Made by a program: the position numbers and the translations under genes
NCBI GenBank assembly: GCA_009268125.1
Contig: WBOU01000007.1
Coordinates: 186,001 to 250,000 of the forward strand
Length of the DNA stretch: 64,000 bases
Origin: Chloroflexia bacterium SDU3-3
GTDB lineage: Bacteria; Chloroflexota; Chloroflexia; Chloroflexales; Roseiflexaceae
Direction: 5' to 3'
Notes under the pieces: model-generated
Database searches by the model: none
What the model saw: the letters and a program-made list of their open reading frames with translations, nothing else
What the model was told of the DNA's origin: nothing
In this document: positions 46,603-64,000 of the stretch, one piece after another
How the letters are laid out: each line of letters begins with the position of its first letter
Numbering within the stretch: the first letter of the stretch is position 1

Positions 46603-46609
46603 CCCAGGG

Positions 46610-46664: not shown

Positions 46665-46672
46665 GTATGTTT

Positions 46673-46727: not shown

Positions 46728-46816
46728 GATTGTACCCTTGTTTTCGAGGCCGGAGACATAGATGCTACTTGAAGTCTAAAATACCCGCTTTTTTGTGAAC
46801 ATTTATTAAGCATCTC

Positions 46817-46846
46817 TTGTTTACGCGCCCGCTCTCATGATATGCT
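46817..46846 (+). promoter_or_regulatory. Possible promoter of the first NB-ARC gene
   Basis: TTGTTT, 18 bases, TATGCT, in an AT-rich pocket about 50 bases before the start at 46894. Confidence 0.4.
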
Positions 46847-46893
46847 TGCACTACCACGATAGTGTGTCGTAGACCATAAAGGTGAAGCGGGCC

Positions 46894-49800
46894 ATGAGTG
46901 AGAAGTTCTCCTTTGATCAGCCTAGCTGGCATCCCAACCATGTCTTCAATGCAGGCAATCTCACCGTCAACATGCCCACCTTCTCTGCCGCACCTTCGCG
47001 AGTTACCTTTATCCCCTATCAGCGGAACAAAGATTTTGTCGGGCGGGAGAAGGAGCTGGCCTGGCTGAATGAGCACCTCGCCCTTCCCAACGCGGTGGTC
47101 GGCATCACTGCCGAGGGTGGCCAGGGCAAGACCCAGCTAGCCACCGAGTTTGCCCACCTGTGCGCCGCCAATCCGGCGGCCTGGCCTGGGGGCGTGCAGT
47201 GGGTGAGCATGGGCGATCCCTCGTCGGTGCCATCGGTGGTGGCGGCGCTGGGGGTGCGCTTCGGCATTATCGGCTACGCCATGATGTCGCTTGAGGAGCA
47301 GGTGGCGGCTGCTAGGCGTGTGTTTGAAGGGCCAGAGCCTCGGCTGCTGATCTTTGATAACTGCGAAGACCCTGCCCTGCTGCGCTCGTGGCGGCCTGCG
47401 GGCGGCGGTGCGCGGATCCTGCTCACCTCGCGCTTTTCCAACTGGAAGCCGAACCAGCTTGTGCGGATGCCGCTTCCCAGCCTTCCTCGCTCGGCGGCCC
47501 TGCGGCTGCTGCTGGCGGGGCGCGCGAATGTGCTGGACACCTCGGTTGAGGCGCTGTGTGGCGACCCCGCCGCCGATGCCGTGTGTATGGTATTGGGCGA
47601 CCACGCGCTGGCACTGTACTTGGCTGGCTCTTATTTGGCCGAAAAGCCGCGCTACTCGCTGAAGTCGTTCTCATCCGAGCTGGCTGCTCGCATGCTTGAT
47701 GCCCCTGCCCTAAAGGTGATCGATCCTGACTCGCCCACCAGCTATCCCCGCCATGTGGCCGAGACCATTGCGCTCTCGGTCGACCTGCTTAACCCCATGT
47801 ATGAGGATAACGAGCATGCGCGCAGCCTGCTGCATATGGCGGCCCATGTGGCCCCCGGTGAGCCGATCCCGGCGGCGCTGCTGCTTCAGGCGCTCAGGAT
47901 CGACGACGCACTGCTCGATGCGGCGATGCGGCGGCTCTGCGCGGTGGGGCTGGCCCATAACACGCGTGATGGAGGGGTGCAGGTGCATCGCCTCGTGGTT
48001 GCCTACGCCTACGCGCAGCAGCACGGCTGGCGGGCGCATTCCCACGCGGAATGTATGGCGGCGGCGCTCTGCGATCTGGCCCGCACCGCCAACGCCGCGG
48101 CAGATCTGGCCGCCATGCAGCCGCTGCTGCCGCACATCCACTATGCGGCAGAGACCGCCGAGCAGCGCAAATCGTCGCACGCGGGTACCCTGTTCAATCA
48201 CCTGGGGTTCTACGCTCAGAAAATTGCCGAGTACGCCACCGCCAAGGCGCTGTACCAGCGGGCGCTGGAGAACGACGAGCTATACTATGGCGCGGATCAC
48301 CCCAAGGTGGCCCGCAACCTGAATAACCTGGGCTGCGTGCTGCACGATCTGGGCGATCTGGCTGGGGCCCGCGCTGCGCTTGAGCATGCGCTAGCGGTGG
48401 ATGAGGCCCACTTTGGTCGCAATGACCCCGAGCTTTCCTACGAGCTGAACAATCTGGGGATTCTGCTGCATGATCTGGGCGACCTTGCTGGCGCGCAGAG
48501 TTATCTTGAGCGTGCCCTGCAGATCGACGAGGTGGCGTATGGACCGAATCACCCCAAGGTTGCCTATGAGACCAATAATCTGGGCATTCTGGCGCAGATC
48601 CAGGGCGATCTGGATCGGGCGCTCGATCTGCACCAGCGGGCCGATGCCATTGACCGCCTGCACTATGGCACCGAGCACCCCAGGGTGGCGCGCGATCTGA
48701 GCAGTATCGCAAGCGTGCTGCGCGCTAAAGGTCGCCTCGTCGAGGCGCAGGAGCGATACCTGCAGGCGCTGAAGATCAACCAGAACTACTATGGCCCCGA
48801 TCACCCCGAGGTGGCGACCACGGTCAACAGCCTGGGCCATGTGGCAAAAGACCTGGGCGACCCGAGCCAAGCTCACGAGCACTACCAGCGGGCGCTGGCG
48901 ATCGACAAGCGCTGCTACGGCGCGAGCCACCCCAAGGTGGCTCGCGATCTGCTGAGCCTGGGCATTCTGGCGCGCGGCACGGGCAACCTGCACATGGCGC
49001 ACATGTACTACGAACAGGCGCTGACGATCGACCAAGCCTGCTATGGCGCAAACCACCCCAATGTCTCGCGTACGCTCTGCCATATGGGCAGTCTCTGCGA
49101 GATGCGGGGCGAGCTGGCGGGGGCGCAGGCCTACTACGAGCAGGCGCTGGCCATCGACCAGCGCCACTATGGCCCGCGCCACCCCACTGTCGCTATGCTG
49201 CTGGGCAACCTGGGTGGCGTGCTGCACGCGCGTGGCGTATTCGCCAGGGCGCATACCTGCTACGAACAGGCGCTGGAGATTGATGAGGCCAGCTATGGCT
49301 TCTACGACGCGCGTGTGGCGAATGACTGCTACAACCTGGGCGTGCTGCTGACTGATATGCAGGATCGCTACCCGGCGCGGGCCTACCTTGAGCGGGCGCG
49401 AGATATCGACATGCGCTACTATGGCCCAAACCACCCTACGCTGGCCCGCGATCTGAGTGCGCTGGGTCGCGTGGTGACTGGCCTGTATGATCTGCGTCTA
49501 GCCCGCGAGTATCTCGCGCAGGCACTGGAGATCGATGAGCAGTTCTACGGCCCCCGCCACCCCCATGTGGCCGCCGACCTAAACAATCTGGGCCTGGTAG
49601 TTGAGGCGCTTGGCCATCTCACAACAGCGCATGATCACTATCAGCGTGCGCTGGAGATCGATGTGCTTCACTATGGCGATCACCACCCCGAGGTGGCCTA
49701 CGATCTGAATAACCTGGGCAGCGTGGCCAAGGAGCTGGGGAACTTGACCCAGGCCCGCGCCTACCTTGAGCGTTCGCTGGCGATCTTCGAGTCGTGTCTG

Positions 49801-49905
49801 CCGACCGACCACCCCAAGGTGTGTAAAGTGCGCGATAATCTAGCCATGGTGGAAACCGCATCCCGCGCCGCAGCGCCGCCCAAGCGCTCGTGGTGGCGGC
49901 GCTAG
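46894..49905 (+). CDS. NB-ARC/TPR STAND NTPase 1
   Basis: A 1003-residue protein. Residues 1-30 hold a short motif FDQPSWHPNHVFNAGN shared with the gene at 50010. The NB-ARC NTPase follows (about 45-340): P-loop EGGQGKTQL (K79), Walker B LLIFDNCED (151-159), LLTSR (176-180), LALYLAGSYLAE. Then a winged-helix part (PGEPIPAALLLQALRIDD) and 13 kinesin-light-chain-type TPRs with IDEAHYGxxHPxVA, ending SWWRR. Such STAND proteins act as switches, many in defence or signalling. There is no effector domain, so a partner is expected. ATG at 46894 preferred to the GTG at 46882. Confidence 0.88.
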   Translation: MSEKFSFDQPSWHPNHVFNAGNLTVNMPTFSAAPSRVTFIPYQRNKDFVGREKELAWLNEHLALPNAVVGITAEGGQGKTQLATEFAHLCAANPAAWPGGVQWVSMGDPSSVPSVVAALGVRFGIIGYAMMSLEEQVAAARRVFEGPEPRLLIFDNCEDPALLRSWRPAGGGARILLTSRFSNWKPNQLVRMPLPSLPRSAALRLLLAGRANVLDTSVEALCGDPAADAVCMVLGDHALALYLAGSYLAEKPRYSLKSFSSELAARMLDAPALKVIDPDSPTSYPRHVAETIALSVDLLNPMYEDNEHARSLLHMAAHVAPGEPIPAALLLQALRIDDALLDAAMRRLCAVGLAHNTRDGGVQVHRLVVAYAYAQQHGWRAHSHAECMAAALCDLARTANAAADLAAMQPLLPHIHYAAETAEQRKSSHAGTLFNHLGFYAQKIAEYATAKALYQRALENDELYYGADHPKVARNLNNLGCVLHDLGDLAGARAALEHALAVDEAHFGRNDPELSYELNNLGILLHDLGDLAGAQSYLERALQIDEVAYGPNHPKVAYETNNLGILAQIQGDLDRALDLHQRADAIDRLHYGTEHPRVARDLSSIASVLRAKGRLVEAQERYLQALKINQNYYGPDHPEVATTVNSLGHVAKDLGDPSQAHEHYQRALAIDKRCYGASHPKVARDLLSLGILARGTGNLHMAHMYYEQALTIDQACYGANHPNVSRTLCHMGSLCEMRGELAGAQAYYEQALAIDQRHYGPRHPTVAMLLGNLGGVLHARGVFARAHTCYEQALEIDEASYGFYDARVANDCYNLGVLLTDMQDRYPARAYLERARDIDMRYYGPNHPTLARDLSALGRVVTGLYDLRLAREYLAQALEIDEQFYGPRHPHVAADLNNLGLVVEALGHLTTAHDHYQRALEIDVLHYGDHHPEVAYDLNNLGSVAKELGNLTQARAYLERSLAIFESCLPTDHPKVCKVRDNLAMVETASRAAAPPKRSWWRR

Positions 49906-50009
49906 TCGGGCGTGCTGGCCGATGCTGGCACAAGGGTAGCCTTCCTCGCTCTTAGCTGAAGTCGTGAATATAGAACGCTCTCTTCATCGAATATGGTATG
50001 GATGTGGCC

Positions 50010-52274
50010 ATGAGCGATATCTCCCGATTTAACCAGCCTAACTGGAATGCTCAGGATGTCTACAATGTCGGCAATGATCAGCATATCCATATGCATAGTA
50101 CGGCATCACTCTCGACGCCATCGTCCTATCGGCCAGTGATCATCCCCTATCGGCGTAACCTTGCGTTTATCGGGCGCGATCGGGATATCATGCTGCTTGA
50201 CCGTTATTTTGCCATGCCCAGCGCGGTGGTGGCGATCACTGGCCATGGCGGGATCGGAAAAACCCAGCTGGCGGTCGCATTCGCCCACCAGTGCGCCCAA
50301 GATCGCGAACGCTGGCCGGGTGGGGTGCTGTGGCTGAGCATGTCCGATCCTGCTGCCATCCCTACGGCGATGGTGGTGCTGGGCGCAAAGCTGGAGATCA
50401 CGGGGTATGCGCGTATGTCGTCCGAGGAGCAGCTGGCGGCAGTGCGGCGCAGCTTGGAAGGTCAGGAGCCACGCCTGCTGGTATTCGATAATTGCGAGGA
50501 CCCATCGCTGCTGCGCCTGTGGTGGCCCGCCAGCGGTGCAGCCAAGGTGCTGATCACATCGCGCTCGGAGAACTGGAATTACACCCAAGTGGTACTGCAC
50601 CGCCTGTCCAGCCTCCCCCGCGCGGCCTCGTGCGAGCTGCTGATGACGCCGCGCGCCCGCTGGCTTCAGCAGGATGTGCGCCTGCTGGCCGATTCGCCGC
50701 TGGTCAACCAGATCTGCGAGGAGCTGGGCGACCACGCGCTGGCTCTGCACTTGGCTGGCTCATATTTGGCCGAGAATCCGCGCACTACGCTCGATATGTT
50801 TCTCGCCGAATTTGGTCGCCATCACCTGAATCTGCCGTCGCTCACCAAAATTGACCCACAGTCGCCTACCGAATACCCGCGCGCACTCGCCGATACGATC
50901 GCGCTCTCGTTCCAACTGCTGAAGCCGGGCGATTCAGTTGATAGACAGGCGATCGCTGTGCTCGATGTTACGGCACATCTGGCACTGGATAAGCCCATCC
51001 CGACCACGCTGTTTTGCCGTGTGTCGGGGATGTCGCTCGATGAGCTGGATGCAGCTATGCAGCGGCTCTGTGTGGTTGGGCTAGCCAGCAATGGGAGAGA
51101 TAACACTATTTTAGTCCATCGTCTGGTGGCGATCTATGCACGCCTGAATCAGGCAGATATACAGAAGAAGCAGATCGTGAAGAAGATCGCAGGCGTGATC
51201 GTGGATATGGGCCAGCGTCTGATTGATGAAGGGCACCCAAAGGCGATTGCAGCGCTGCTGTCGCATATCACCCATGTGGTGAAGACCAGCGCGCTGTTTG
51301 AACTGCCCCACACTGGTGCGCTCTCGGGCATCCTCGGCGTATACTACGAGCATATCGCCGACTATGCCAAGGCACGTGAGTCGTATGAGCAGGCGATCCA
51401 TGCCGATGAGCGCTACTATGGGGTGGATGATGTGCATGTATCGGGACATCTGAAGGCGATGGGGCATCTGCTGGCCCAGATGAACCGGCTGGAAGATGCG
51501 CAGATCTACTACCAGCGTGCGGCAGAGATCAGCCTGCAGGCGCTGCAGGTGGGCGAGATGCAGGGCGACTCGCGCCCCAGCACAGCACGGCGAGTGCGCG
51601 AGTTGGGGGCGGCCTACTGCGCTCTGGGCAACTTCATCCAGGCGCATCTGCTCTATGCGCGGGCGCTGGTGATTGATGAGGAGATCTTTGGGCCGATGAA
51701 TCTGGTGGTGGCCGACGACTGCCATGATCTCGGCAAGCTGCTGAAGCAGCTAGGCGATCTCCCCATGGCGCGCACCTATCTGGCACGGGCGCTGGCGATC
51801 TATGAAGCGTACTATGGCAGCGAGCATGTCATGGTGGTGTCGGTGCTGATCAGTCTAGGGCGGGTGGTGAAGGCCTCTAAGGATATGGATGCTGCCGCGC
51901 AGCTATATGAGCGCGCCCTTCAGATGGCCAAGCGGATCTGCGATCGCGACGACCCGATGATCGCCACGATCCTAACAAATCTTGGCAGCGTGGCCCAGAG
52001 CCAGGGCCAGGCCGCCAAAGCCGAGATATTCTATCAAGAAGCACTGCGGATTAATGAGGCGCACTATGGCCCTTCCCACCCCTATGTGGCAAAGAATGCC
52101 TACAACTTGGGTAGCATTGCCTTTGATTCGAGGGATCGGCGCAAGGCGCAGGTATATTTTCAGCAGGCGCGCGATATCTACATGACGCGCTTCCCACTCT
52201 CACACCCGCAGGTGGCGAATGTGTGTGCGATCTTGTTCCAGTTGGAGAGCGAGCTGTGGGAGGTGGAAGCCTAA
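50010..52274 (+). CDS. NB-ARC/TPR STAND NTPase 2
   Basis: A 754-residue protein built like its neighbour. N-terminal motif FNQPNWNAQDVYNVGN, then GNDQHIHMHS; NB-ARC with P-loop GHGGIGKTQLA (K84), Walker B LLVFDNCEDPS and LITSRSENW; winged helix (DKPIPTTLFCRVSGM); and about eight more degenerate TPRs. It lacks the WWRR end. Between the two proteins the NTPase half is clearly related, the TPR half much more diverged, suggesting changing partner recognition. The ATG at 50010 aligns with the start of the first protein; an ATG at 49998 is possible. A terminator follows at 52288. Confidence 0.87.
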   Translation: MSDISRFNQPNWNAQDVYNVGNDQHIHMHSTASLSTPSSYRPVIIPYRRNLAFIGRDRDIMLLDRYFAMPSAVVAITGHGGIGKTQLAVAFAHQCAQDRERWPGGVLWLSMSDPAAIPTAMVVLGAKLEITGYARMSSEEQLAAVRRSLEGQEPRLLVFDNCEDPSLLRLWWPASGAAKVLITSRSENWNYTQVVLHRLSSLPRAASCELLMTPRARWLQQDVRLLADSPLVNQICEELGDHALALHLAGSYLAENPRTTLDMFLAEFGRHHLNLPSLTKIDPQSPTEYPRALADTIALSFQLLKPGDSVDRQAIAVLDVTAHLALDKPIPTTLFCRVSGMSLDELDAAMQRLCVVGLASNGRDNTILVHRLVAIYARLNQADIQKKQIVKKIAGVIVDMGQRLIDEGHPKAIAALLSHITHVVKTSALFELPHTGALSGILGVYYEHIADYAKARESYEQAIHADERYYGVDDVHVSGHLKAMGHLLAQMNRLEDAQIYYQRAAEISLQALQVGEMQGDSRPSTARRVRELGAAYCALGNFIQAHLLYARALVIDEEIFGPMNLVVADDCHDLGKLLKQLGDLPMARTYLARALAIYEAYYGSEHVMVVSVLISLGRVVKASKDMDAAAQLYERALQMAKRICDRDDPMIATILTNLGSVAQSQGQAAKAEIFYQEALRINEAHYGPSHPYVAKNAYNLGSIAFDSRDRRKAQVYFQQARDIYMTRFPLSHPQVANVCAILFQLESELWEVEA

Positions 52275-52326: not shown

Positions 52327-53004
52327 CTACAGATCTGGGATCTGCCAGTCGATCGGGGTGTGGCCTTGGGCGGCCAGCGCGGCGTTGATCTTGGAGAAGG
52401 GCCGCGAGCCGAAGAAGCCGCTGCGGGCCGAGAGCGGCGAGGGGTGGGCCGACTGGATGACCACGTGGCGCTCGGCGTCGATCAGCTTGAGCTTCTTCTG
52501 GGCGTTGCCGCCCCACAGCACGAACACGGCTGGCTCGGGCCGCCGGCTCAGGGCCGCGATCACGGCGTCGGTGAACTTCTCCCAGCCCTTGCTCTTGTGC
52601 GAGTTCGGCTCGTGGGCGCGCACGGTCAGCGCGGTGTTCAGCAGCAGCACGCCCTGCCTGGCCCAGGGCACCAGGTAGCCGTTGTTGGGCACCTTGCAGC
52701 CTAGGTCGGCCTTCAGCTCCTTGTAGATGTTCACCAGCGAGGGCGGCACGGTCACGCCGGGGCGCACCGAGAAGGCCAGCCCGTGGGCCTGCCCGTCGTC
52801 GTGGTAGGGGTCCTGTCCCACCACCAGCACCCTGGCGCTCTCGTAGGGCGTCAGCTCCAGGGCCGAGAACACCTCGCCCTCGGGCGGGAACACGGTGTGG
52901 GCGGCGCGCTCGGCCTCTAGGAAGGCCATCAGCTGCGTGTAGTAGGGCTTTTTGGTCTCGGCCTCCAGCACGGGCTGCCAAGACTCGGGTATCGCTGCGC
53001 TCAT
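52327..53004 (-). CDS. ung: Uracil-DNA glycosylase (family 1)
   Basis: A 225-residue family-1 enzyme that removes uracil from DNA. The catalytic-water motif GQDPYH has Asp65; LLLNTALTV and HPSPLSA form the uracil pocket and the DNA-intercalating loop. Length is normal. The ATG at 53004 starts MSAAIPESW; an upstream extension is repeat-derived. The stop faces the NB-ARC operon terminator. A remnant of its last codons lies at 46673-46727. Confidence 0.95.
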   Translation of the reverse strand: MSAAIPESWQPVLEAETKKPYYTQLMAFLEAERAAHTVFPPEGEVFSALELTPYESARVLVVGQDPYHDDGQAHGLAFSVRPGVTVPPSLVNIYKELKADLGCKVPNNGYLVPWARQGVLLLNTALTVRAHEPNSHKSKGWEKFTDAVIAALSRRPEPAVFVLWGGNAQKKLKLIDAERHVVIQSAHPSPLSARSGFFGSRPFSKINAALAAQGHTPIDWQIPDL

Positions 53005-53027
53005 CGGTTGTTTCTTTCTTTTTTTGG

Positions 53028-53095
53028 AACTACAAAGGCTCAAAGACACGAGATTTTTTTGAACCACGAAGACTCAAAGACACGAAGCTTTTTGA
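53028..53095 (+). repeat. Family-B iterated repeat, locus 7
   Basis: CAAAGGCTCAAAGACACGAG then AACCACGAAGACTCAAAGAC: two short runs between ung and the VWA gene. Confidence 0.75.
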
Positions 53096-53171
53096 GCAAT
53101 TATAGTGACTATGATGCGATAACGTCGGTTTCTACGAGTTGACCGCTATATTTTTAGATATGCGCTAATTT

Positions 53172-53206
53172 TGTATCCCTTCGAGTCTTCGCGTCTTCGT
53201 GGTTAA
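53172..53206 (-). repeat. Family-B iterated repeat, locus 8 (reverse)
   Basis: TTCGAGTCTTCGCGTCTTCG then TGGTTAA, ending exactly at the stop codon of the VWA gene. It faces locus 7 and could pair with it. Confidence 0.75.
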
Positions 53207-54385
53207 CTACCTCTGCTCGCTGCGGCTGGCCACGATGCCGTTGGCGGCGGCCCACTGGCCGAGGTCGCGGCGCTCGATGGCGGCGGCCATCAGGTTGGGG
53301 AACTGGTCGGGCGTGCAGGCGAAGGCGGGCGCGCCCAGCGCGGCGAAGGCCTCGGCGGCGCGGTGGTCGTAGAAGGGCGCGCCCTCGTCGCTCAGGGCCA
53401 GCAGCGCCACGCACTGTGTGCCCGAGGCCACGATCGCCCCGGCCCGCTTGAGCATCTGCTCGTAGCTGCCGCCCTCGTACAGGTCGCTGATCAGCACCAG
53501 GATGGTCTCGCTGGGGCGGCTGATGATGCCCTGGCAGTACTCGAGCGCGCGGTTGATGTCGGTGCCGCCGCCCAGGTTGATGCCGAACAGCAGCTCGACG
53601 GGGTCGTGCAGGTCGGCGGTGAGGTCGACCACCGAGGTGTCGAACACCACCACCTGGGTGCGCACGGCGGGCAGCGAGGCCAGCACCGCGCCGAAGATCC
53701 CGGCGTACACGGCGGATGTGGCCATCGAGCCGGACTGGTCGATGCACAGCACGATGTCGCGCAGGCTGCTGCGCTTGCGCCCGTAGCCGATCCGCCGCTC
53801 GGGCACGATGGTGCGGTACTCGGGCTGATAGTGCCTGAGGTTGGCGCGGATGGTGCGGTGCCAGTCGATCTCGCTGTGACGCGGGCGGTTGTTGCGGGTG
53901 GCGCGATTGAGGCTACCCATCACGGCGCGGCGGGTGGGGCTGGCCAGCTTCTTCATCAGCTCATCCACCACGCGCCGCACCACCTGCCGCGCGGTGTCTA
54001 GGGTCTTGGTGGGCATCACGCCGCGCATGGCGATCAGGTCGGCCACCAGGTGCACATCCGGCTCGACGGTGTTGAGCAGCTCTGGCTCCATCAGCATCTG
54101 GCGCAGGTCGAGCCGCTCAAGGGCGTCGCGCTGCAGCACCTGCACCACCGAGCTGGGGAAGTACTCGCGGATGTCGCCCAGCCAGCGGGCGATGTTGGGC
54201 TGCGAGCTGCCCAGGCCGCCGCGCCTATCGGAGTCGTAGAGGGCCTGGAGCGCGCCGTCCATGCGGGCGTCGGGTGCGCCCAGGGCCAGGCCGGTGCCGT
54301 CGGCCTCGCCGCCGCCCAGGATGAGCCGCCAGCGGCGTAGCGCCTCGTCGTTGGTCTCGTGGGGGTGTTGGGTGGGTGTGGTCAC
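53207..54385 (-). CDS. VWA domain protein, last gene of the SWIM-MoxR operon
   Basis: A 392-residue protein with a helical N-terminal half (DALERLDLRQMLMEPELLN, VRRVVDELMKKLASPTRRA) and a C-terminal von Willebrand A domain. The metal-ion site is DQSGS (D216) in IVLCIDQSGSMATSA; GGGTDINRAL and LISDLYEGG give the other ligands. Such VWA proteins work with a MoxR AAA ATPase, here three genes upstream. The GTG start overlaps the App1 stop (GTGA), so translation is coupled. It probably assembles or regulates a target complex; the target is unknown. Confidence 0.85.
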   Translation of the reverse strand: MTTPTQHPHETNDEALRRWRLILGGGEADGTGLALGAPDARMDGALQALYDSDRRGGLGSSQPNIARWLGDIREYFPSSVVQVLQRDALERLDLRQMLMEPELLNTVEPDVHLVADLIAMRGVMPTKTLDTARQVVRRVVDELMKKLASPTRRAVMGSLNRATRNNRPRHSEIDWHRTIRANLRHYQPEYRTIVPERRIGYGRKRSSLRDIVLCIDQSGSMATSAVYAGIFGAVLASLPAVRTQVVVFDTSVVDLTADLHDPVELLFGINLGGGTDINRALEYCQGIISRPSETILVLISDLYEGGSYEQMLKRAGAIVASGTQCVALLALSDEGAPFYDHRAAEAFAALGAPAFACTPDQFPNLMAAAIERRDLGQWAAANGIVASRSEQR

Positions 54386-55656
54386 TGCGGGTCTCCGTCG
54401 GTAACAATGATGTCGGGCGCCGGCTCGCCCGCCTGCTGGGCCTCGGCCAGGCGCTCGCCCACGATCTGCCCGGCCTGGGCCGGGGCTGGCGTCTGCACCA
54501 CGGTGGTGGTGTGGCCCTGGGCGGCCTCGGCAGGCGAGGCGGCGCTGGTGTCGTGGGCCATATCGGCGGCCACATCCCTCAGCGCCTCGGGGCTGATCCA
54601 TCCCTGCGCGGCGGCGTGGCGGGCCATGGCCAGGGTGTCCTCGGCCAGGATGAGCGTGCCGCCTGCGGCCACCACCTGCTCGGTGAGCGCGGCCACGGCG
54701 GCGATGCGCTGCGGGCTGGGGTCGACGCTGCGGATGTAGATGGCGCGGATGCGCGACGGGTAGAGGCGCATCACCTCGGCGTAGATCTCGGGGTCTTCCT
54801 GGCCGCTGTCACCCACCAGCACGAAGGGTAGCGCGGGGTAGAAGTCGAGCAGCTCGCGGATGGCGGCCAGCTTGTGGTCGCGGTGGCCCAGCGGCAGCCG
54901 ATCGGGCGAGAGCCCCCAGTCGCGCAGGAACATGCCGCCCTTGGGCAGCCCGCGCAGCGCGAAGAAATCGGTCAGCATGTCGTAGATGTTCCACGGGCTG
55001 CTGGAGACGTAGAAGATCGGGTTGACGAACGGCCCGGGCGCTCCGGCGTGCAGGGCGCGGTAGAGCGCGGCCACGCCGGGGAAGGGCAGGCGGGTGCGCG
55101 CGCTGCTCAGGAAGACATTGCGGGCCATGTTCAGCAGGTTGATCGCGTCGGTCTTCACCACCGTGTCGTCGATGTCGCTGATGATGCCGAACTGGGCGTC
55201 GGGCTGCGGGATGAACACCTGGCCGGTGGCGCTAGCCCGCTGGCCGCTGGGCGCGGCGGCATCCAGCGCCACGTCGTGCCAGGGCTGCCCGGCGGGCGGG
55301 CTGGCGGCCAGGGTGAGCCGCAGCTCGAAGAAGCCCTCGGGGTCGCTGGTGGCAGCCTGCTCGGCCCCTAGGATGCGGCCCACCACCTGCGCGCCCGGCA
55401 CCTCGTCGGTCTCGAAGCGGCGGTAGGTATCTAGCAGATTCTGCCAGAGCGTGTCGTGGTCGCGGGCGGCGGGTGCGCCCTGGGCGTCCAGCACGCGCCC
55501 GCGCAGCACTGCCCGCGTGGCGTCGCCGTAGCCCAGGTAGGGCACGATCACCACCGGCTCGCGGCCCAGGCGGTCGTCGAGGGCGCGGGCCATGCGGGCG
55601 AAGGTGTTCTCGGCCTCGTCGCCCAGGTGGGCCAGGATGTCTCGCCAGTGCTCCAT
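54382..55656 (-). CDS. App1/DUF2183-type phosphatase domain protein
   Basis: A 424-residue protein. An N-terminal beta-rich domain (about 30-150: VVIVPYLGYGDATRAVLRGR) precedes a haloacid-dehalogenase-like domain with DIDDTVVKTD (D161, D163), the motif of Lipin/Smp2 and yeast App1 phosphatidate phosphatases; YVSSSPWNIYD and KLAAIRELLDFYPALPFVLV are also family-typical. It may act on phosphatidate or another phosphate ester. The last 100 residues include an Ala-rich tail. Ribosome site AGGAGGAACC. It lies 8 bases after the DUF5682 gene, an unusual addition to this operon. Confidence 0.85.
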   Translation of the reverse strand: MEHWRDILAHLGDEAENTFARMARALDDRLGREPVVIVPYLGYGDATRAVLRGRVLDAQGAPAARDHDTLWQNLLDTYRRFETDEVPGAQVVGRILGAEQAATSDPEGFFELRLTLAASPPAGQPWHDVALDAAAPSGQRASATGQVFIPQPDAQFGIISDIDDTVVKTDAINLLNMARNVFLSSARTRLPFPGVAALYRALHAGAPGPFVNPIFYVSSSPWNIYDMLTDFFALRGLPKGGMFLRDWGLSPDRLPLGHRDHKLAAIRELLDFYPALPFVLVGDSGQEDPEIYAEVMRLYPSRIRAIYIRSVDPSPQRIAAVAALTEQVVAAGGTLILAEDTLAMARHAAAQGWISPEALRDVAADMAHDTSAASPAEAAQGHTTTVVQTPAPAQAGQIVGERLAEAQQAGEPAPDIIVTDGDPQ

Positions 55657-55664
55657 GGTTCCTC

Positions 55665-57926
55665 CTAGTGCGCGGCGGGCGCGAGCCCCAGCAGCTGGGC
55701 CACCAGCGGCAGCGCGGCCTCGGCGCGGGCGGTGTCGAGCGGCAGGGCCTCGCCGCCTCCTGCGGCGGCGCTGGCGGTGCCGTCTTTGGCACGCTCGCCC
55801 ATCTGGCGGCGCTCGGGCTTGGTGAAAGTGGCGAAGGTTCGGCGCAGCAGCGGCAGCACCTGCTGGAACAGCTCGGGCGTCAGACCGCGCACCCAGCCGT
55901 CGATGATCTGCCAGAGCGACTCGTGATGGATGAGCAGCATGCCGCTGCCCTTGAGCGTGCCCTCGACCCAGGCGGCGGCCTGGGCGGGCGTGGCCGCAGG
56001 CGAGAGCGCGAAGCTCAGGCGCTGGCCCAGCTCGTCGGTGCCGATGGCCTCGGCGTCGAGCAGCAGGCGGCAGCAGCGCCCGGCCACCAGCCCGTGCGCC
56101 CCGGCCATGTCGGCCACCTGCCGCAGCGCGTCGCACCAGGCCTGCTGGTGCTGCCTATCGGCCAGCATGCCCAGGGCCTGCGCGGTGTCGCTGATGCGCT
56201 TGAACATGGCCGCCGCCGCGTCGTCGTTCAGCGAGGCGCACGCGCCCGGCAGGCCGATGCAGATGCGCGCCACCAGCCCGCTCACCACGTGCTCCAGCGC
56301 CGCCGAGTCGGTGCGGCGCACGTTGCCGTAGCGCAGCGCGTTGGCCAGCGGCGGCAGCGCCTCCATCAGGTGCGGCACATCGCTGGAGAGCGCGGCGGCT
56401 TCCTCAAGCTGGCGCATGGCCTGGGCCACGGCCTTGGGCAGGTCGGCCAGCAGCGCCTGCTCCACCAGCGCCGTCAGCTCGGGCAGGGCGGTGGCACGCC
56501 GCGCCGTGTCGCAGGCGTAGGCGGTGGCGGCCTCGGCCACGGTCGCGCCCCACATGCTGGCCTCGATCAGCGTGATGGTGAACTCGGGCTGCCACTCGAC
56601 CCGCCAGTTCTCGTGGAAGGTGCCCTTGCCGCCCGCGTGCTGGATGTGGCCCCATGGGATCTTGAGCAGGTTGAGGCGGTGCAGCAGCTGGCTGCGCTCT
56701 AGGTCGATCGGCTTGCGCAGATCGAGCGCGTAGTCGCGCCAGGTGGCCTCCACGGCCATGCGCAGCCGCTTCTGCTCGCGTGTCAGATCGGACTGGAGCG
56801 GCGTGGTGGGCGCGCTGCCGGGCACGCTGCCCAGCCGCTCGGCCACGATCAGCTTCTCGGCGATCAGCTGCATAGGCAGGTCGCTGCCGAAGCAGAACAC
56901 GGCGCGGGCGGCCTCGTTCAGCTCATCTAGGCCGGGCAGCGGGCGGTCGCGGATGGCGGCCAGCGCCTCGGCCAGGCGCACCGCCTCCACCACGTGGGCG
57001 GCGGATGCGTCCAGATCCTGCTCGCGCATGAGCCGGGCCACCAGGGCCATCCAGCGGTTGGTCACCTCGTTGGGGGCCTGCCACAGGTGCTCGTAGTAGC
57101 CGGGCGATGCGATGCCCGCGCCGTAGCCGCTGCTGCTGGCCAGCCGCTTGTAGGTCCAGGGCGAGAAGGTGGCCTGCACCTTGGCTTTGGGCATGCCCTT
57201 GAGCAGGGCGGCGTCGGCCTTGGCGCTGCTGGCGCTGCCCACCAGGGCGGGGCCGTGCCACGCGCCGCACACTACCGCGATCCGCCCATAGCCCTGCTTC
57301 TCGGCTGCGCGGATGGTCTGGCGCATCCAGGCCTCGCGGCGCTGCTCGTTGAGGTCCAGTTCGCCCGTGGCCTGCTCGCGCAGCGCGGCCATGGCCTCCA
57401 GAATGGCCTCGAACACGCCGGTGCTGTCCTGGCGCTGCTCGACCATCTGCTCCCACCAGCGCTCACCGTCGCTGTAGCCTGCGGCGCGGGCCAGATGGCC
57501 CAGCGGGTCGCCCGCGATCGGGTCTTGCTCGGCCAGGGCGGCCTCGGCGGGCTGCTGGGCCTCGGGCGCGGGGGCCTCGGGCAGCTCGGGCGGCGGCTCG
57601 GGCGGTGCCGCGCCCAGCTGGTGGGCCTGCGGCAGATCCATGAAGCGCACCGGCACGCCATTTTGCAGCGCGTAGCGGATGGCCTGGAACTCGGGCGAGA
57701 ACACCGCGAACGGGTAGTAGGCGGCCTCGTTGGGCTGGCTGGCCACGTAGATCAGTAGGGCCACGGGCGGCTGCAGGCTCTCCTCCGCGAACAGCGGCAG
57801 CAGCTCGTCGGCGTCGGGTGGGCCTTCGATCAGCACGCAGTCGGGCTGCAGCTGCTCAAGCGCCAGCAGCAGGCTGCGTGCCGATCCCGGGCCATGGTGT
57901 CGAATGCCAAAGATGTGAACGGTCAT
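55665..57926 (-). CDS. DUF5682 family protein
   Basis: A 753-residue protein of unknown activity. The start MTVHIFGIRHHGPGSARSLL and CVLIEGPPDADELL are the signature of this family, which resembles the TraB/ChaN-like fold in its first 150 residues (IRHHGPGS). Further blocks are RIAVVCGAWHGPAL and FSPWTYKRLASSSGYGAGI. No membrane segment or signal. In many actinobacteria and Chloroflexi this gene stands with MoxR, VWA, DUF5691 and SWIM genes, as here. It starts 13 bases after the MoxR stop. Confidence 0.85.
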   Translation of the reverse strand: MTVHIFGIRHHGPGSARSLLLALEQLQPDCVLIEGPPDADELLPLFAEESLQPPVALLIYVASQPNEAAYYPFAVFSPEFQAIRYALQNGVPVRFMDLPQAHQLGAAPPEPPPELPEAPAPEAQQPAEAALAEQDPIAGDPLGHLARAAGYSDGERWWEQMVEQRQDSTGVFEAILEAMAALREQATGELDLNEQRREAWMRQTIRAAEKQGYGRIAVVCGAWHGPALVGSASSAKADAALLKGMPKAKVQATFSPWTYKRLASSSGYGAGIASPGYYEHLWQAPNEVTNRWMALVARLMREQDLDASAAHVVEAVRLAEALAAIRDRPLPGLDELNEAARAVFCFGSDLPMQLIAEKLIVAERLGSVPGSAPTTPLQSDLTREQKRLRMAVEATWRDYALDLRKPIDLERSQLLHRLNLLKIPWGHIQHAGGKGTFHENWRVEWQPEFTITLIEASMWGATVAEAATAYACDTARRATALPELTALVEQALLADLPKAVAQAMRQLEEAAALSSDVPHLMEALPPLANALRYGNVRRTDSAALEHVVSGLVARICIGLPGACASLNDDAAAAMFKRISDTAQALGMLADRQHQQAWCDALRQVADMAGAHGLVAGRCCRLLLDAEAIGTDELGQRLSFALSPAATPAQAAAWVEGTLKGSGMLLIHHESLWQIIDGWVRGLTPELFQQVLPLLRRTFATFTKPERRQMGERAKDGTASAAAGGGEALPLDTARAEAALPLVAQLLGLAPAAH

Positions 57927-57938
57927 GGTGCCACCCGT

Positions 57939-59018
57939 CTAAGAGATCTCGCGGCAGGCGCGGTAGAGGTCTTTCCAGCCGTCGCGCTCTTTCACCACCG
58001 TCTCCAGGTACTCCAGCCAGGCCACCCGATCCTGCACAGGGTCTTTCACCACCGCGCCCAGCAGGCCCGAGGCCACGTCGCCAGCGCGCATCTGGCCGTC
58101 GCCGAAGTGGGCGGCCAGCGCTAGCCCCTGGTTCACCACCGAGATAGCCTCGGCGGTGGAGAGCGTGCCGCTGGTAGATTTGAGCTTGCTCTTGCTGTCG
58201 GATGTCACGCCGCTGCGCAGCTCGCGGAAGATCGTGACGATCCGGCGGATCTCCTCCACCGCTGGCGGCTCGGCGGGCAGCTCTAGGGCGCGGCCCAGGC
58301 TGGCCACGCGCTGCCGCACGATCTCCACCTCCTCGTCGATCGTTGCGGGCAGGGGCAGCACCACGGTGTTGAAGCGGCGCTTGAGCGCGCTGGAGAGGTC
58401 GTTCACGCCACGGTCGCGGTCGTTGGCGGTGGCGATGATGTTGAAGCCGCGCACGGCCTGTACCTCGGTGTTCAGCTCGGGCACGGGCAGGGTCTTCTCG
58501 GAAAGGATGGTGATCAGGGTGTCCTGCACATCGGATGGGATGCGGGTCAGCTCCTCCAGGCGGGCGATCTTGCCATCCTGCATGGCGCGCATCAGCGGGC
58601 TGGCCACCATGGCCTCGGTGGATGGCCCCTCGGCCAGCAGCCGCGCGTAGTTCCAGCCGTAGCGGATGCTCTCCTCGCTGGTGCCCGCCGTGCCCTGGAT
58701 GAGCATGGTCGAGTCACCCGAGATCGCGGCGGAGAGGTGCTCGGAGACCCAGCTCTTGGCGGTGCCGGGCACGCCCAGCAGCAGCAGGCCACGGTCGGTG
58801 GCCAGCGTGGCCACGGCGATCTCGATCACGCGGCGGCTGCCGATGTACTTGGGCGTGATCTCCGCGCCGTTCTCCAGCTTGCCGCCCAGCAGGTAGGTGG
58901 AGACCGCCCACGGCGAGAGCTTCCAGCTCGGCGGGCGTGGGCGGGTGTCGATCTGGGCGAGGATCGCTAGCTCCTCGGCATATTGCTGCTCGGCGTGAGC
59001 GCGTAGAACTTGGCTCAT
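57939..59018 (-). CDS. MoxR-family AAA+ ATPase
   Basis: A 359-residue ATPase. Walker A is GVPGTAKSW (residues 82-90, the usual MoxR form with Ala before Lys), Walker B and following: KIARLEELTRIPSDVQDTL; sensor region GFNIIATANDRDRGVNDLS; arginine finger in SSALKRRFN. MoxR enzymes fold or mature complexes with a VWA partner, here the gene at 53207. The 60-base gap before it has no terminator, so it belongs with the DUF5691 and SWIM genes upstream. Confidence 0.92.
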   Translation of the reverse strand: MSQVLRAHAEQQYAEELAILAQIDTRPRPPSWKLSPWAVSTYLLGGKLENGAEITPKYIGSRRVIEIAVATLATDRGLLLLGVPGTAKSWVSEHLSAAISGDSTMLIQGTAGTSEESIRYGWNYARLLAEGPSTEAMVASPLMRAMQDGKIARLEELTRIPSDVQDTLITILSEKTLPVPELNTEVQAVRGFNIIATANDRDRGVNDLSSALKRRFNTVVLPLPATIDEEVEIVRQRVASLGRALELPAEPPAVEEIRRIVTIFRELRSGVTSDSKSKLKSTSGTLSTAEAISVVNQGLALAAHFGDGQMRAGDVASGLLGAVVKDPVQDRVAWLEYLETVVKERDGWKDLYRACREIS

Positions 59019-59088
59019 GGTCTTCCTCTCGCTCTATACTGGCATGTGTATGCTATTGAAAAAGGTGATCGTTTGGTTTTAGACCGTG

Positions 59089-60600
59089 CTACAGCCCGTT
59101 GGCCAGCGCATCGAGCATCTCGGCGCGGAAGTGCAGCACGATCAGGAATCGGTCGACCGCGCCCTGCCAGCGGTCCCAGTCGCGCATCTGCGTGTTCCAG
59201 CCGGTGTTGGCCTGGGCGGCCAGCGCGGGCGGGAAGAAGCGCGCGCTGTTTTTGAGCACATCAAGCGTGTGCCAGTCGATCTTGCCCTTGCCTAGCAGGC
59301 GCTGCATGTGGGCCAGCACCTCGCGGGCGAACGGCTCGCTCCAGGGGTGGGCGCAGCTCTGGATGAACTGCGAGACGCCCTCGGTGTCGCTGCGCAGCAG
59401 CGGCGCGACCACGCGCTCGCGCTGGGCGGGCGGCATGATCGCGATCATGGCAGCCAGCTCGCGCATGTCCTTGTCCTGGCGGGCGGCGACCAGCGCCTCG
59501 GCCCACTCTAGGTTCTGGAACCTGCTGGCGGCCTCGCGCCAGCTGCTGATCAGCAGCTCGCGCCACTCGCTCTGCTGAGCTGCGGCGATGATCTCGGCGG
59601 GCGACGCGCCCCATGTGGCGCTCCAGTGCCCTGGGTCGATGGCCAGCAGGATCTGGTGGAACCACCAGGCTTTCTCGCCGTAGCTGCTGTACTGCGGCTT
59701 CTGGTCGATGCTGTCGCGGGCCATGTCTGGCTCGAAGCGCTCGATCAGGCGCAGCTCGATCAGGGGCTGGCGCAGCAGGCGGCGCTTCAGCTCGATGTGG
59801 GCCTGGGCGCGCTGGCGCATGCGCTGGGCCAGGCGCGACTCGGGCAGGCGGGCCAGCAGCCCGGCGGCCACGCGGCGCACCTCCTTGCTGCGGTCGTCGA
59901 GCAGGCCCTCCAGCCACGGCTCGTCGTCCATGGTGGCGCTCTGGCCGATAGCGGCGGCGAAGGTGGCGCGGGCGTCAGCCTTCTCCTTCGTCCATGTGGT
60001 GGCCAGCAACTCGCGGGCGGCGGCGGGGTCGCGGCGGTGCAGCTCCTCCAGCACGGCGGCGCGGGCGTTCTCGCTGCCGGTCTCCCACACATCCTGGGGG
60101 TTGGGCACATCGCCCTGCACCACCAGCTTGCGCCAGGATGGGTGCTGCTGGGCCAGCCACAGGCCGCGCTGGCCCAGGGCGGCCAGCAGGCTCGCCCGAT
60201 CGATCTGCTGCCCGTGGGCCTTCTCAAGCAGGGCGGGCAGCTGGGCGGGCGGCACGCGCACCCCCGCCGCGCTGGCGGCGGCCAGCCACTCGCCCAGCAG
60301 ATCGCGGTGCTGGTCGCCCAAGATCTGGCGCAGGTGCAGGGTGGCGCGCGGGCCGCATAGGGGCGCGCTCTCGGCGGGGCTGGGGGCGGGCGGCGCGGCG
60401 CTGGCCTGAGGCGCGGTCGCCCCGGCGCGGCGGTACTGCGCCAGCGCGGCGGCGGTGTCGAGCAGGGCGCGCTCGGGCGGGGCGGCGGCCAGCAGCTGGC
60501 CCAGCGCCCCCGGCGCGTCGGGGGCCGCGAAGGGCCGTCGGTCGGTGCCCAGCAGCGCGGCCGTCACGGCCTGCTGCCAGATCTGATCGGGTGTGCTCAT
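59089..60600 (-). CDS. DUF5691 family protein
   Basis: A 503-residue, mainly helical protein. It starts MSTPDQIWQQAVTAALLGTDRR, the DUF5691 signature. Further on are HPSWRKLVVQGDVPNPQDVW and stretches such as AVLEELHRRDPAAARELL that look like HEAT-type helical repeats. It probably serves as a scaffold. The start overlaps the SWIM stop (ATGA), so the two are translationally coupled. Function is unknown. Confidence 0.85.
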   Translation of the reverse strand: MSTPDQIWQQAVTAALLGTDRRPFAAPDAPGALGQLLAAAPPERALLDTAAALAQYRRAGATAPQASAAPPAPSPAESAPLCGPRATLHLRQILGDQHRDLLGEWLAAASAAGVRVPPAQLPALLEKAHGQQIDRASLLAALGQRGLWLAQQHPSWRKLVVQGDVPNPQDVWETGSENARAAVLEELHRRDPAAARELLATTWTKEKADARATFAAAIGQSATMDDEPWLEGLLDDRSKEVRRVAAGLLARLPESRLAQRMRQRAQAHIELKRRLLRQPLIELRLIERFEPDMARDSIDQKPQYSSYGEKAWWFHQILLAIDPGHWSATWGASPAEIIAAAQQSEWRELLISSWREAASRFQNLEWAEALVAARQDKDMRELAAMIAIMPPAQRERVVAPLLRSDTEGVSQFIQSCAHPWSEPFAREVLAHMQRLLGKGKIDWHTLDVLKNSARFFPPALAAQANTGWNTQMRDWDRWQGAVDRFLIVLHFRAEMLDALANGL

Positions 60601-61928
60601 CGCTCCTCCACAAGGCTGACCCAGCCATCATCCGCCCACGCCCCCAGCGGCAGCAGCCGCTCGCCATCCCACTCGCCGAACACCGTGATCGGCTGCCCGC
60701 CGCTGATTGCCAGGGCCTGCCAGCCGCGCTCGAACTGGCGGGCCAGCGGCAGCGTCTGGCCGTTGGCGTCAATCAGCTGCCACACCTCGCCCGCCAGCGC
60801 GGGGGTGACATCGGCCAGCAGCGCGGGGAAGGTCTCCTGCCAGGGGCTGGCGCTCAGGATGGCGGCGGCGGCGGCCAGCGCCTGGTCGGATGTGCCGCCA
60901 GCGGGCCGCGGCGCGCGCGGCGTGGTCTCGTGCAGCTGCTTGACGATGGCGCGCATGGGGGCGGCGCTGGGGTAGAAGACCAGGTCGGCCTCGATGGCCG
61001 TGCCGGGCACCAGGCTGCGGTCGAGCGGCTGCCCCGGCGCGGCGAACTCCAGCACCAGGGCCGGCTGGCCGCCGCGCTCGCCGCGCAGCCAGGTGCGCAG
61101 GGTGCGCAGGCCCTCGTCCTCGCTCAGCGAGCGCCCGAGGATGGCCCAGCGATCGCGGGTGCCCTCCTGGGCCAGCAGCTCCTCGCGCGGGTAGGTCCAG
61201 CCCAGCGCGGTGCGGATGTCGGCCTGGGCGGCGGGCGGGAAGGCCTCGATGCGGGTGGAGGCCTGGAGCAGCAGGTGCAGGCGGCCCATCCGCGCCACCA
61301 GCCGATCTTGCCAGCCCTGGCCGGATGTGGCGGCCTCGCCCAGGCCGCGCACTAGGCGGGCCAGCCCAGGGGCCTGCGAGTCGACCATGCGGGCGGCCAT
61401 GCTGGCCCAGTAGCTGTGCGGCTGCTGCTGGGCCACCACCAGGCCTTGGCGCAGCATGTCGTCGAGCCAGCGGCACAGATCTTGCACACCGGCAGCGACC
61501 CTCGCCTCACGCGTGCTGGTGCGCTTGGCCGTGGCCTCGGTAGAGCGCTCGGTCTTCTCGGCGGGCTTTTCTTCTTTGGCGGCCTGCTTTTTCGTGCGGC
61601 TCTCGATCCACTCGGCCATCCAGGGCGGCTGCGGCTGCTCGTCGATCTGCTGGGGGGCGCTGGCGTAGAGCAGCAGCAGCCCAAGGGCGTGCTTGCAGGG
61701 GAACTTGCGGCTGGGGCACGAGCAGCGGGTGGCGGGCGTGCCCGCCGCCAGATCTATCTGGGTGCGGTACGGCGTGGCCGAGCTGCCCTTGCACTCGCCC
61801 CACAGCGCCTGCTCGCTGCGGCCCAGCGAGACCCAGGTGCGGGCGTTGGCCAGCTTCTGGCCCGCCTTCAGGCTGGCGGTGTCGGGGGCAAGCGCAGAAA
61901 CGTGTTCGGTCGTTAGCTCTGTTGGCAT
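60597..61928 (-). CDS. SWIM zinc-finger protein, first gene of the operon
   Basis: A 443-residue protein. The SWIM motif C69-x-C71-x6-C78-x-H80 (CSCPSRKFPCKH) is intact, in the context RTWVSLGRSEQALWGECKGS that is typical for this operon type. Then comes a Lys/Glu-rich linker and a helical C-terminal domain with GEVWQLIDANGQTLPLA. SWIM fingers bind DNA or proteins. The ATG at 61928 is preferred to the upstream ATG at 61970, which overlaps the promoter. It leads the six-gene operon from a promoter region with a perfect palindrome. Confidence 0.88.
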   Translation of the reverse strand: MPTELTTEHVSALAPDTASLKAGQKLANARTWVSLGRSEQALWGECKGSSATPYRTQIDLAAGTPATRCSCPSRKFPCKHALGLLLLYASAPQQIDEQPQPPWMAEWIESRTKKQAAKEEKPAEKTERSTEATAKRTSTREARVAAGVQDLCRWLDDMLRQGLVVAQQQPHSYWASMAARMVDSQAPGLARLVRGLGEAATSGQGWQDRLVARMGRLHLLLQASTRIEAFPPAAQADIRTALGWTYPREELLAQEGTRDRWAILGRSLSEDEGLRTLRTWLRGERGGQPALVLEFAAPGQPLDRSLVPGTAIEADLVFYPSAAPMRAIVKQLHETTPRAPRPAGGTSDQALAAAAAILSASPWQETFPALLADVTPALAGEVWQLIDANGQTLPLARQFERGWQALAISGGQPITVFGEWDGERLLPLGAWADDGWVSLVEER

Positions 61929-61960
61929 AGGCTCTATAGGTACGTTGGTGAATTGGCGGC

Positions 61961-61969
61961 AGTGTAGCA
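61961..61969 (-). promoter_or_regulatory. Extended -10 promoter of the SWIM operon
   Basis: On the minus strand TGC plus TACACT, 33 bases before the ATG. The -35 region falls inside the palindrome at 61975-61995. Confidence 0.5.
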
Positions 61970-61974
61970 TCGTG

Positions 61975-61995
61975 CTGTGACACCAAATGTCACAG
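61975..61995. promoter_or_regulatory. Palindromic operator CTGTGACA-N5-TGTCACAG
   Basis: Perfect 8-bp arms with a CCAAA spacer, between the diverging SWIM operon and sensor gene, overlapping the -35 region of the former. The half-site spacing (TGTGA-N9-TCACA) does not fit the CRP rule of N6. The factor is unknown. Confidence 0.6.
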
Positions 61996-62011
61996 CTGAT
62001 GGGTCACTGTA

Positions 62012-62020
62012 TGGTATCAT
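62012..62020 (+). promoter_or_regulatory. Extended -10 promoter of the sensor gene (TGGTATCAT)
   Basis: TGG plus TATCAT about 100 bases before the ATG at 62120; the palindrome lies about 20-40 bases upstream. Confidence 0.5.
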
Positions 62021-62119
62021 TCGTGTCAACTTCCCGTTTTGTGTAAAGCGTTTCGCCGTGAAGATGCGAGAATCTGCCGATGGCGCGGGCTGCGCCGCTG
62101 GCCAGAAGGAGCTCTATCC

Positions 62120-64000
62120 ATGACCCCCATGCTGCGGCGTGAGGCCAATGAGGCATTTCAGCGCACCCTCACGCGCGCTATCCTGCTGCCGCTTGGCCTG
62201 CTGGTGGTGCTCGCGATTATCTTCTTCCTGCTGATCCAGAACCTGCTGGGCGCGGTCGACTGGGTGGAGCACACCGACCATGTGCTGGCCAGCGCCAACG
62301 AGCTAGAGAGCTCCATCCTCGATCAGGAGACCGGCATGCGCGGCTTCCTGCTCACCGGCCAAGATTCTTTTCTCACCCCCTATAGCGAGGCGCTGTCTTC
62401 CGTGGATGGCCAGCTCGATGATCTGACGAGGCTGGTGGCCGACAACCCGCCGCAGCTGGAGCGGGTCGATGCCATCCGCCGTCTGAACGAAGAGTGGCAG
62501 CAGTACGCGGTACTGGCCCTGGAGGCGCGGCGCAACGGCGGCGACTATATGTCGCTGGTCTCCAGCGGCGTGGGTAGAGAGCGCATGGACGCCATCCGCG
62601 ATCAGTTCGACGCCGTGATCGCCGCCGAGGAGCAGCTGCGCACCACCCGCACCGCCGCCGCCCGCACCACCACCGGCGCGGCGGTGGTGGTGAGCGTGCT
62701 GGCCACGCTGCTGCTGGGCGGCGCGCTGGCCCTGCTCTCGCGGCGCACGCTGCTGCGCCTGTCGCACACCTACAACACCGCGCTGCGCAGCGCCGAGGCC
62801 AACGAGCAGGAGCTGTACACCCAGCGCGAGTGGCTCCAGAGCACCCTGGCCAGCATCGGCGACGCCGTGATCGCCACCGACGCCCGCGGCAACATCAGCT
62901 TTATCAACCCGGTGGCCGAGGCGCTGACCGGCTGGACTGGCGACGCCGCCCTGGGCAAACCGCTGCGCGATGTCTTCACGATCGTGAACGAGCAGACCCG
63001 CGCCGAGGTTGAGATCCCGGTCGACCGCGTGCTGCGCGAGGGCGTGGTGGTGGGGCTGGCCAACCACACCGCGCTGGTGCGGCGCGACGGCACCAGCATA
63101 CCGATCGACGACAGCGCCGCACCAGTGCGCAATGCGACAGGGGCCATGGTGGGGGCCGTGCTGGTGTTCCGCGATATCTCGGGTCGCTACCGCGCCGAGC
63201 AGGCCCTGCGCGAGAGCGAGCGGCGCTACCGCGACCTGGCCGAGGCCATGCCCATGCTGGTGTGGACGGCCACGCCCCAGAGCCAGATCGACTACTTCAG
63301 CAGCTACTGGCACCGCTTCACTGGTCTGGAAGCGCCGGATGCGCAGCGCTTCTCGGCGGCGCTCCACCCCGACGACCTAGAGGGGATGCGCGAGACCTGG
63401 TTTCAGGCGGTGGAGCGCGGCCAGCCCTTCAATGTCGAGGTGCGCCTGCGCCGCGAGGATGGCGTCTACCGCTGGCATATTGTGCGGGCGGCGCTGCGCG
63501 GCGGCGAGGATGGCCGCCCCGACAAGTGGTACGGCACTGCGCTCGATATCGACGACCAGAAGCGCGCCGAGCAGGCCCTGCGCGAGAGCGAGGCCGAGTT
63601 CCGCCAGATCACCGAGACCATGCCGCAGATGGTGTGGACCACGCGGCCCGATGGCTACCACATCTACTTCAACCAGCGCTGGTACGACTACACCGGCACC
63701 ACCCTAGATCAGGTGCGCGGCGAGGGCTGGGCCAGCATCCTGCACCCCGACGATGTGACGCTGACCATGGAGACCTGGAAGCGCTCGCTTGAGACTGGCG
63801 AGCTCTACCAGATGGAGTACCGATTTCGCGAGGCGGCCACCGGGAAGTACAAGTGGTTCCTGGGCCGGGCCGCCGCCATCCGCGATGCCAGCGGGCAGAT
63901 CACCGAGTGGTTCGGCACCTGCACCGATATCGACGAGCAGAAGCGCGCCGAGGAGTCGCTGCGCCAGCACACCGAGCAGCTGGCCCTGGCCACCGCCGCG
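62120..64000 (+). CDS. CHASE3/PAS sensor protein, probably a histidine kinase (cut by window end)
   Basis: The frame is open for 627 codons to the last base. A membrane helix near residues 25-45 (ILLPLGLLVVLAIIFFLLI) is followed by an outside CHASE3 domain with DQETGMRGFLLTGQ, a second helix near 193-213 (VVVSVLATLLLGGALALL), and then three PAS domains. PAS 1 begins LQSTLASIGDAVIATDARGN; PAS 2 and 3 share AMPMLVWTATP / TMPQMVWTTRP and each ends in a PAC motif with DIDDQKRAEQAL or DIDEQKRAEESL. A kinase domain should follow beyond the window. Ribosome site AAGGAG. Confidence 0.85.
   Translation, partial: MTPMLRREANEAFQRTLTRAILLPLGLLVVLAIIFFLLIQNLLGAVDWVEHTDHVLASANELESSILDQETGMRGFLLTGQDSFLTPYSEALSSVDGQLDDLTRLVADNPPQLERVDAIRRLNEEWQQYAVLALEARRNGGDYMSLVSSGVGRERMDAIRDQFDAVIAAEEQLRTTRTAAARTTTGAAVVVSVLATLLLGGALALLSRRTLLRLSHTYNTALRSAEANEQELYTQREWLQSTLASIGDAVIATDARGNISFINPVAEALTGWTGDAALGKPLRDVFTIVNEQTRAEVEIPVDRVLREGVVVGLANHTALVRRDGTSIPIDDSAAPVRNATGAMVGAVLVFRDISGRYRAEQALRESERRYRDLAEAMPMLVWTATPQSQIDYFSSYWHRFTGLEAPDAQRFSAALHPDDLEGMRETWFQAVERGQPFNVEVRLRREDGVYRWHIVRAALRGGEDGRPDKWYGTALDIDDQKRAEQALRESEAEFRQITETMPQMVWTTRPDGYHIYFNQRWYDYTGTTLDQVRGEGWASILHPDDVTLTMETWKRSLETGELYQMEYRFREAATGKYKWFLGRAAAIRDASGQITEWFGTCTDIDEQKRAEESLRQHTEQLALATAA

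Follow-up and report, generated by a model that had tools for sequence, protein, structure and literature searches.

A conserved MoxR-VWA gene cassette with a predicted TraB-type domain in DUF5682

MoxR-VWA systems couple a MoxR-type AAA+ ATPase, whose ring powers a conformational change, to a VWA protein that grips a peptide (PMC7159879). Described examples are the CoxD-CoxE, NorQ-NorD, and RavA-ViaA pairs and the MoxR-vWA ternary conflict systems (VMAP, iSTAND; PMC7159879). Here we analyze a cassette of this kind from Chloroflexia bacterium SDU3-3, in which genes for MoxR and VWA stand together with genes for a SWIM protein, DUF5691, and DUF5682. It lies in a stretch of 64,000 nucleotides (the window), which corresponds to positions 186001-250000 of contig C7 in a genome of 6.76 Mb.

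Like the three pairs, the cassette has a MoxR AAA+ protein with a VWA partner of the CoxE type; unlike them, it has no metalloenzyme family that stands out among its linked neighbors, it has three extra conserved subunits, and its MoxR carries EE in place of the usual DE in Walker B. With the ternary conflict systems it has MoxR, vWA, and a further component in common, but here that component is a predicted TraB-fold protein with SWIM and DUF5691, not STAND. The text of PMC7159879 does not mention SWIM or DUF56xx, and none of the six proteins of the window operon has a Pfam VMAP match (no VMAP model was run across the loci). The reading we favor, tentatively, is that the five core products form one ATP-driven protein-remodelling or processing machine with a TraB-type hydrolase.

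A five-gene core with a passenger

A first-pass annotation of this DNA had described an operon of six same-direction genes at 53207-61928, all on the minus strand, and open reading frames, Pfam domains, and gene junctions agree with that description. In order of transcription the genes encode a SWIM protein (61928-60597, 443 amino acids [aa]; Pfam SWIM, 2.6e-7), a DUF5691 protein (60600-59089, 503 aa; PF18944, 4.8e-141), a MoxR-type AAA+ ATPase (59018-57939, 359 aa; AAA_5, 1.7e-39), a DUF5682 protein (57926-55665, 753 aa; PF18934, 1.5e-284), an App1-type HAD phosphatase (55656-54382, 424 aa; APP1_cat, 1e-48), and, from a GTG start, a VWA_CoxE protein (54385-53207, 392 aa; VWA_CoxE, 1.1e-51). 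The junctions are an ATGA overlap, gaps of 70, 12, and 8 bases, and a GTGA overlap. As to the accompanying claim that no terminator separates the genes, a simple scan found no terminator-like site within 52900-62150, but as shuffled sequences gave a mean of 2.7, this is weak evidence.

To place the operon, we used a phylum sample of 251 Chloroflexota genomes and a wider sample of 80 loci, which is not random because it took the loci most similar to the query in a scan of 84,980 species. Of the 60 loci whose flanks reach far enough, 52 carry the full SWIM-DUF5691-MoxR-DUF5682-VWA set and 51 of those keep this order; median gaps between the genes are -1 to 17 bases. By record titles, the hosts span about ten phyla: Cyanobacteria, Chloroflexota, Planctomycetota, Proteobacteria, Bacteroidota, Actinomycetota, Acidobacteriota, Verrucomicrobiota, Armatimonadota (Chthonomonas), and Deinococcota. 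SWIM and DUF5691 are a single polypeptide in three loci from Planctomycetota and Actinomycetota (L095, L116, and L151). The first-pass proposal that the genes travel together is thus borne out for five of the six, which form one block and are not found separately in most relatives.

The genes also co-occur across the phylum. DUF5682 is present in 33 of the 251 genomes and DUF5691 scores above its cut-off in 24, of which 23 also have DUF5682 (hypergeometric p ~1e-23); the single remaining genome is a fragmented assembly. Of ten loci with a lone DUF5682 or an incomplete cassette, nine come from genomes that also contain DUF5691. Across the five core proteins, pairwise distances correlate with r of 0.63 to 0.86, to which shared species history contributes. 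The earlier description of a multi-part system driven by nucleoside triphosphates, its task unsettled, stands.

The App1 gene does not belong to this core, although the annotation had counted it as a member. It occurs in five of the 251 genomes, and the window copy is the only one inside the operon; as the other four genomes lack DUF5682, we regard it as a local insertion, perhaps an extra enzyme recruited locally. None of the other DUF5682 loci examined yielded an App1 relative. The six-gene framing accordingly becomes five core genes plus an App1 passenger.

Predicted folds and conserved sites of the core proteins

An AlphaFold2 model of DUF5682, built from 64 natural relatives, has a mean predicted local distance difference test score (pLDDT) of 90.4 and consists of an alpha/beta domain at about residues 1-260 followed by a helical solenoid. 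The best of 959 chains in VIA-align is 7w5z_E, which superimposes on model residues 1-237 (Z 9.1, root-mean-square deviation [rmsd] 5.0, 190 aligned), while the other matches fit the solenoid. This chain carries the PDB name 'TraB family protein', and the published account of that complex IV agrees with the naming (PMC10060162). In a profile comparison with hhalign, the N-terminal domain matches the PrgY-type TraB profile with a probability of 86.8% and an E value of 4.2e-6, in an alignment that spans 240 columns and keeps every motif in register; of the controls, the positive PrgY-GumN comparison gave 94.2% and the eight negatives at most 2.6%.

The two families have a common motif order, GxxH, PDxVxxE, Asp, R(E/D)xxM, and VVxGxxH, in which the Glu of PDxVxxE lies 24 residues past the GxxH His. 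In 111 DUF5682 sequences, H10, H11, E34, E79, D97, R197, E198, M201, G221, and H224 are near-invariant; H10 (or H11), E34, and H224 align with the TraB site, and E79 and E198 are further acids. Model, profiles, and motifs together identify the N-terminal region as a predicted domain of the TraB/PrgY type (TIKI superfamily), which the helical solenoid follows. With that superfamily DUF5682 would have in common the fold and the order GxxH, E at +24, D, R(E/D)xxM, GxxH, and it differs by the solenoid and by a gene-order tie to an AAA+ motor. The assignment is new here, though Pfam curators may already know of it. By analogy with an active enzyme of the TIKI superfamily, which depends on two His and two Glu residues (PMC6254334), DUF5682 is likely a hydrolase.

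The SWIM protein has a zinc finger (CxC...CxH) whose Zn ligands are invariant in 51 sequences, and its model (pLDDT 94.6) places a helical middle between this finger and C-terminal OB-like beta domains. Residues 3-118 resemble ZSWIM8 (VIA-align, Z 9.4), and residues 244-433 match mostly OB-fold proteins (HIN-200, RPA, and telomere proteins) at Z of about 5-6.6, a level reachable by chance arrangements. OB-like folds at the modeled C terminus are plausible, from which nucleic-acid binding does not follow. DUF5691 is probably a HEAT-repeat helical scaffold, to judge from a HEAT_2 match of 9e-5 that lies under its cut-off. In MoxR, Walker A, G.PGTxK(S/T), is conserved in 98 relatives, and the Walker B position, usually Asp-Glu, is Glu-Glu in 98 of 98. 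The metal ion-dependent adhesion site (MIDAS) of the VWA protein is intact (DxSGS, GGGT, D) and conserved in 97 sequences. A MoxR gene with Walker A and a neighboring VWA gene with MIDAS are the sequence marks of a MoxR-VWA pair.

The E. coli counterpart, paralogous operons, and a shared palindrome

In E. coli K-12, yehL-yehM-yehP-yehQ encode MoxR, DUF5682, VWA, and SWIM in one operon, which is the E. coli counterpart in a MoxR-DUF5682-VWA-SWIM version. It is covered to at least 80% in 5162 of 5426 complete E. coli genomes (~95%) and is nearly always chromosomal. The four components are homologous to those of the window or of the same family, and all DUF5682 motifs are retained. Unlike the window, the E. 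coli control genome has no DUF5691; the SWIM gene comes last, with weak similarity to the window SWIM, and DUF4132/WGR genes are adjacent (molR region). This counterpart had been overlooked in the first-pass annotation, as had the TraB-type domain of DUF5682 and the shared operator described below. A literature search found no paper mentioning DUF5682 or DUF5691; it found the four yeh genes together only in a genome announcement, no study of the machine's role, and nothing useful about the yeh genes or about a connection of MoxR with phage shock.

The genome of SDU3-3 itself has two paralogous operons. One, on contig C4 (L033), reads DUF4132 (three genes)-MoxR-DUF5682-VWA-SWIM and is of the E. 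coli type, its SWIM protein matching YehQ at 2e-27. The other (L034) combines VWA-MoxR-DUF5682 with two upstream genes of 167 and 447 aa, for which no Pfam match was found in operons of this type. DUF4132 adjoins DUF5682 operons in nine loci (L033, L061, L113, L114, L119, L120, L126, L139, and L141), in contexts that include the paralogue of this genome, E. coli yehI, and, in Chitinophagaceae, the position downstream of VWA. A DUF4132 gene is induced upon depletion of the Deinococcus radiation-response repressor (PMC8533742).

Directly ahead of the SWIM gene in the window lies a 19-bp palindrome, TGTGACA-N5-TGTCACA (61976-61994), a putative operator. There are six exact copies in the genome, against none of a control pattern; the other five are at C1:655573, C4:37829, C4:23919, C7:2055, and C1:230115. 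Three of the six stand at the heads of all three DUF5682 operons (~1.5e-10 under random placement), so these operons probably share one regulator, which would bind the palindrome and control the window operon and both paralogues. A few other genes of this genome are also headed by the palindrome (TPR, GNAT, and DUF6745).

Relatives carry the palindrome at the matching place, exactly in L039, with one mismatch in L036, L098, L056, and L058, and with two in L057; the sites of L056, L057, and L058 belong to L034-type operons. In family f2, all three DUF5682 genomes drawn have an exact site, versus none of nine without DUF5682 (p 0.0045). The exact site is on a different contig from the DUF5682 operon in G222 and likewise in G061, where the operon itself has a one-mismatch form. 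In several genomes the palindrome precedes an orthologous membrane-anchored TPR gene; in G061 (L259, 540-2353) it lies between the membrane TPR gene and a divergent PspC-domain gene, and another site adjoins an AIM24-family gene. Given these neighbors, our guess is that the palindrome marks an envelope-stress regulon. It is not upstream of recA, and we rejected it as an SOS box.

A candidate remodelling machine, its rivals, and the neighboring genes

On the reading we favor, MoxR would form the predicted AAA+ ring and VWA would be its metal-dependent adaptor, holding a substrate peptide. DUF5682, whose helical arm would carry a catalytic domain of the TraB/TIKI type, would hydrolyze the substrate that MoxR/VWA presents. 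SWIM and DUF5691 may supply a target-recognition and scaffold arm through the zinc finger, OB-like domains, and HEAT-like repeats. What we infer is thus complex formation, catalysis, a substrate, and a stress role, perhaps in the envelope. A wider proposal, that a MoxR/VWA motor feeding a TraB/TIKI-type subunit defines a widespread class of energy-dependent hydrolases from Chloroflexota to E. coli (yehLMPQ), placed under a palindromic operator and within a stress regulon in this Chloroflexota order, is more doubtful.

Several observations weigh against the hydrolytic machine. MoxR-VWA pairs elsewhere are maturation chaperones that act without proteolysis. The structural match to TraB is moderate (the Z of 9.1 comes with an rmsd of 5), TraB is not among the first 50 Foldseek matches of the full DUF5682 model, a list filled by helical repeats, and the N-terminal domain has no significant match to the GumN-type TraB profile, though the register is the same. 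The OB-like matches of the SWIM protein also call for caution. Some TIKI-fold proteins are not enzymes and lack the 2His/2Glu motif (PMC6254334). At the level of regulation, G166 has a DUF5682 operon without the site and G070 has the site without DUF5682, which means that the regulator does not belong to the DUF5682 system alone. Further searches were also negative: a profile comparison of DUF5682 with only four TraB sequences was not significant, a PDB sequence search with the DUF5682 profile returned nothing relevant, and PF01963 was not found in 61 Chloroflexota.

The same gene set might instead be a maturation chaperone of the CoxD-CoxE, NorQ-NorD, or RavA-ViaA type, in which MoxR/VWA remodel a client for a metal cofactor and the TraB-fold protein helps in binding rather than cutting. 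The VWA protein does belong to the CoxE family, and NorQD is reported to drive metal insertion by twisting (PMC13036017). DUF4132 genes lie alongside DUF5682 in E. coli, Chitinophagaceae, and paralogue L033; the E. coli version adjoins the WGR and DUF4132 genes of the molR region, and DUF4132/WGR proteins have been tied to E. coli molR (PMC8533742). However, molybdate genes were unchanged where a DUF4132 gene was induced (PMC8533742), and neighbor clustering over 100 loci, which covers linked genes only, shows no metalloenzyme family prominent beside the cassette. This explanation also leaves the near-invariant His/Glu site of DUF5682 unexplained, and we consider it unlikely. That site bears, too, on the idea that the TraB domain is catalytically inactive, a peptide-binding or regulatory scaffold beside a ring that only disassembles complexes: the motif-less, inactive TIKI-fold proteins (PMC6254334) offer a precedent, but near-invariance of the His/Glu motif in 111 sequences is unusual for a mere scaffold, and we find the idea improbable.

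A conflict system, anti-phage or acting by altruistic death and related to the MoxR-vWA ternary systems described by Kaur et al. (2020), seems improbable as well. The MoxR-vWA core idea is the same (PMC7159879), there is a weak bpMoxR match, a STAND gene lies next door in the window, and presence across the phylum is patchy. Yet the six proteins have no PADLOC match (2023 library), no STAND component is conserved (1-2 of 100 loci have relatives), yehLMPQ sits on the chromosome and is present in nearly all E. coli, and related species have flanking genes in common, as vertical inheritance predicts. If DUF5682 is the hydrolase of an ATP-driven machine, as we favor, it would be a new catalytic family for AAA+-driven processing and would link the poorly understood TraB/TIKI proteins to a motor. 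Recognition of the predicted TraB fold points to a concrete active site for mutation and turns DUF5682 into a biochemical question in a laboratory strain, for a five-part set of no assigned task that is found in distant phyla and has a counterpart in ~95% of complete E. coli genomes.

The STAND context that the first-pass annotation had thought meaningful comprises three consecutive TPR-rich genes on the plus strand (44119-52274), the last of which (49998-52274) has an NB-ARC domain; with relatives at so few loci, they were rejected as partners and are incidental neighbors of the operon. Directly downstream of VWA in the window is a uracil-DNA glycosylase gene (52327-53003, minus strand). Such a gene (8229-9074) lies between DUF5682 and VWA in L038, with relatives also in L036 and L093. 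Between the VWA and uracil-DNA glycosylase genes of the window are tandem 34-base repeats (53020-53087) and a 26-base inverted repeat of 88% (53179-53204).

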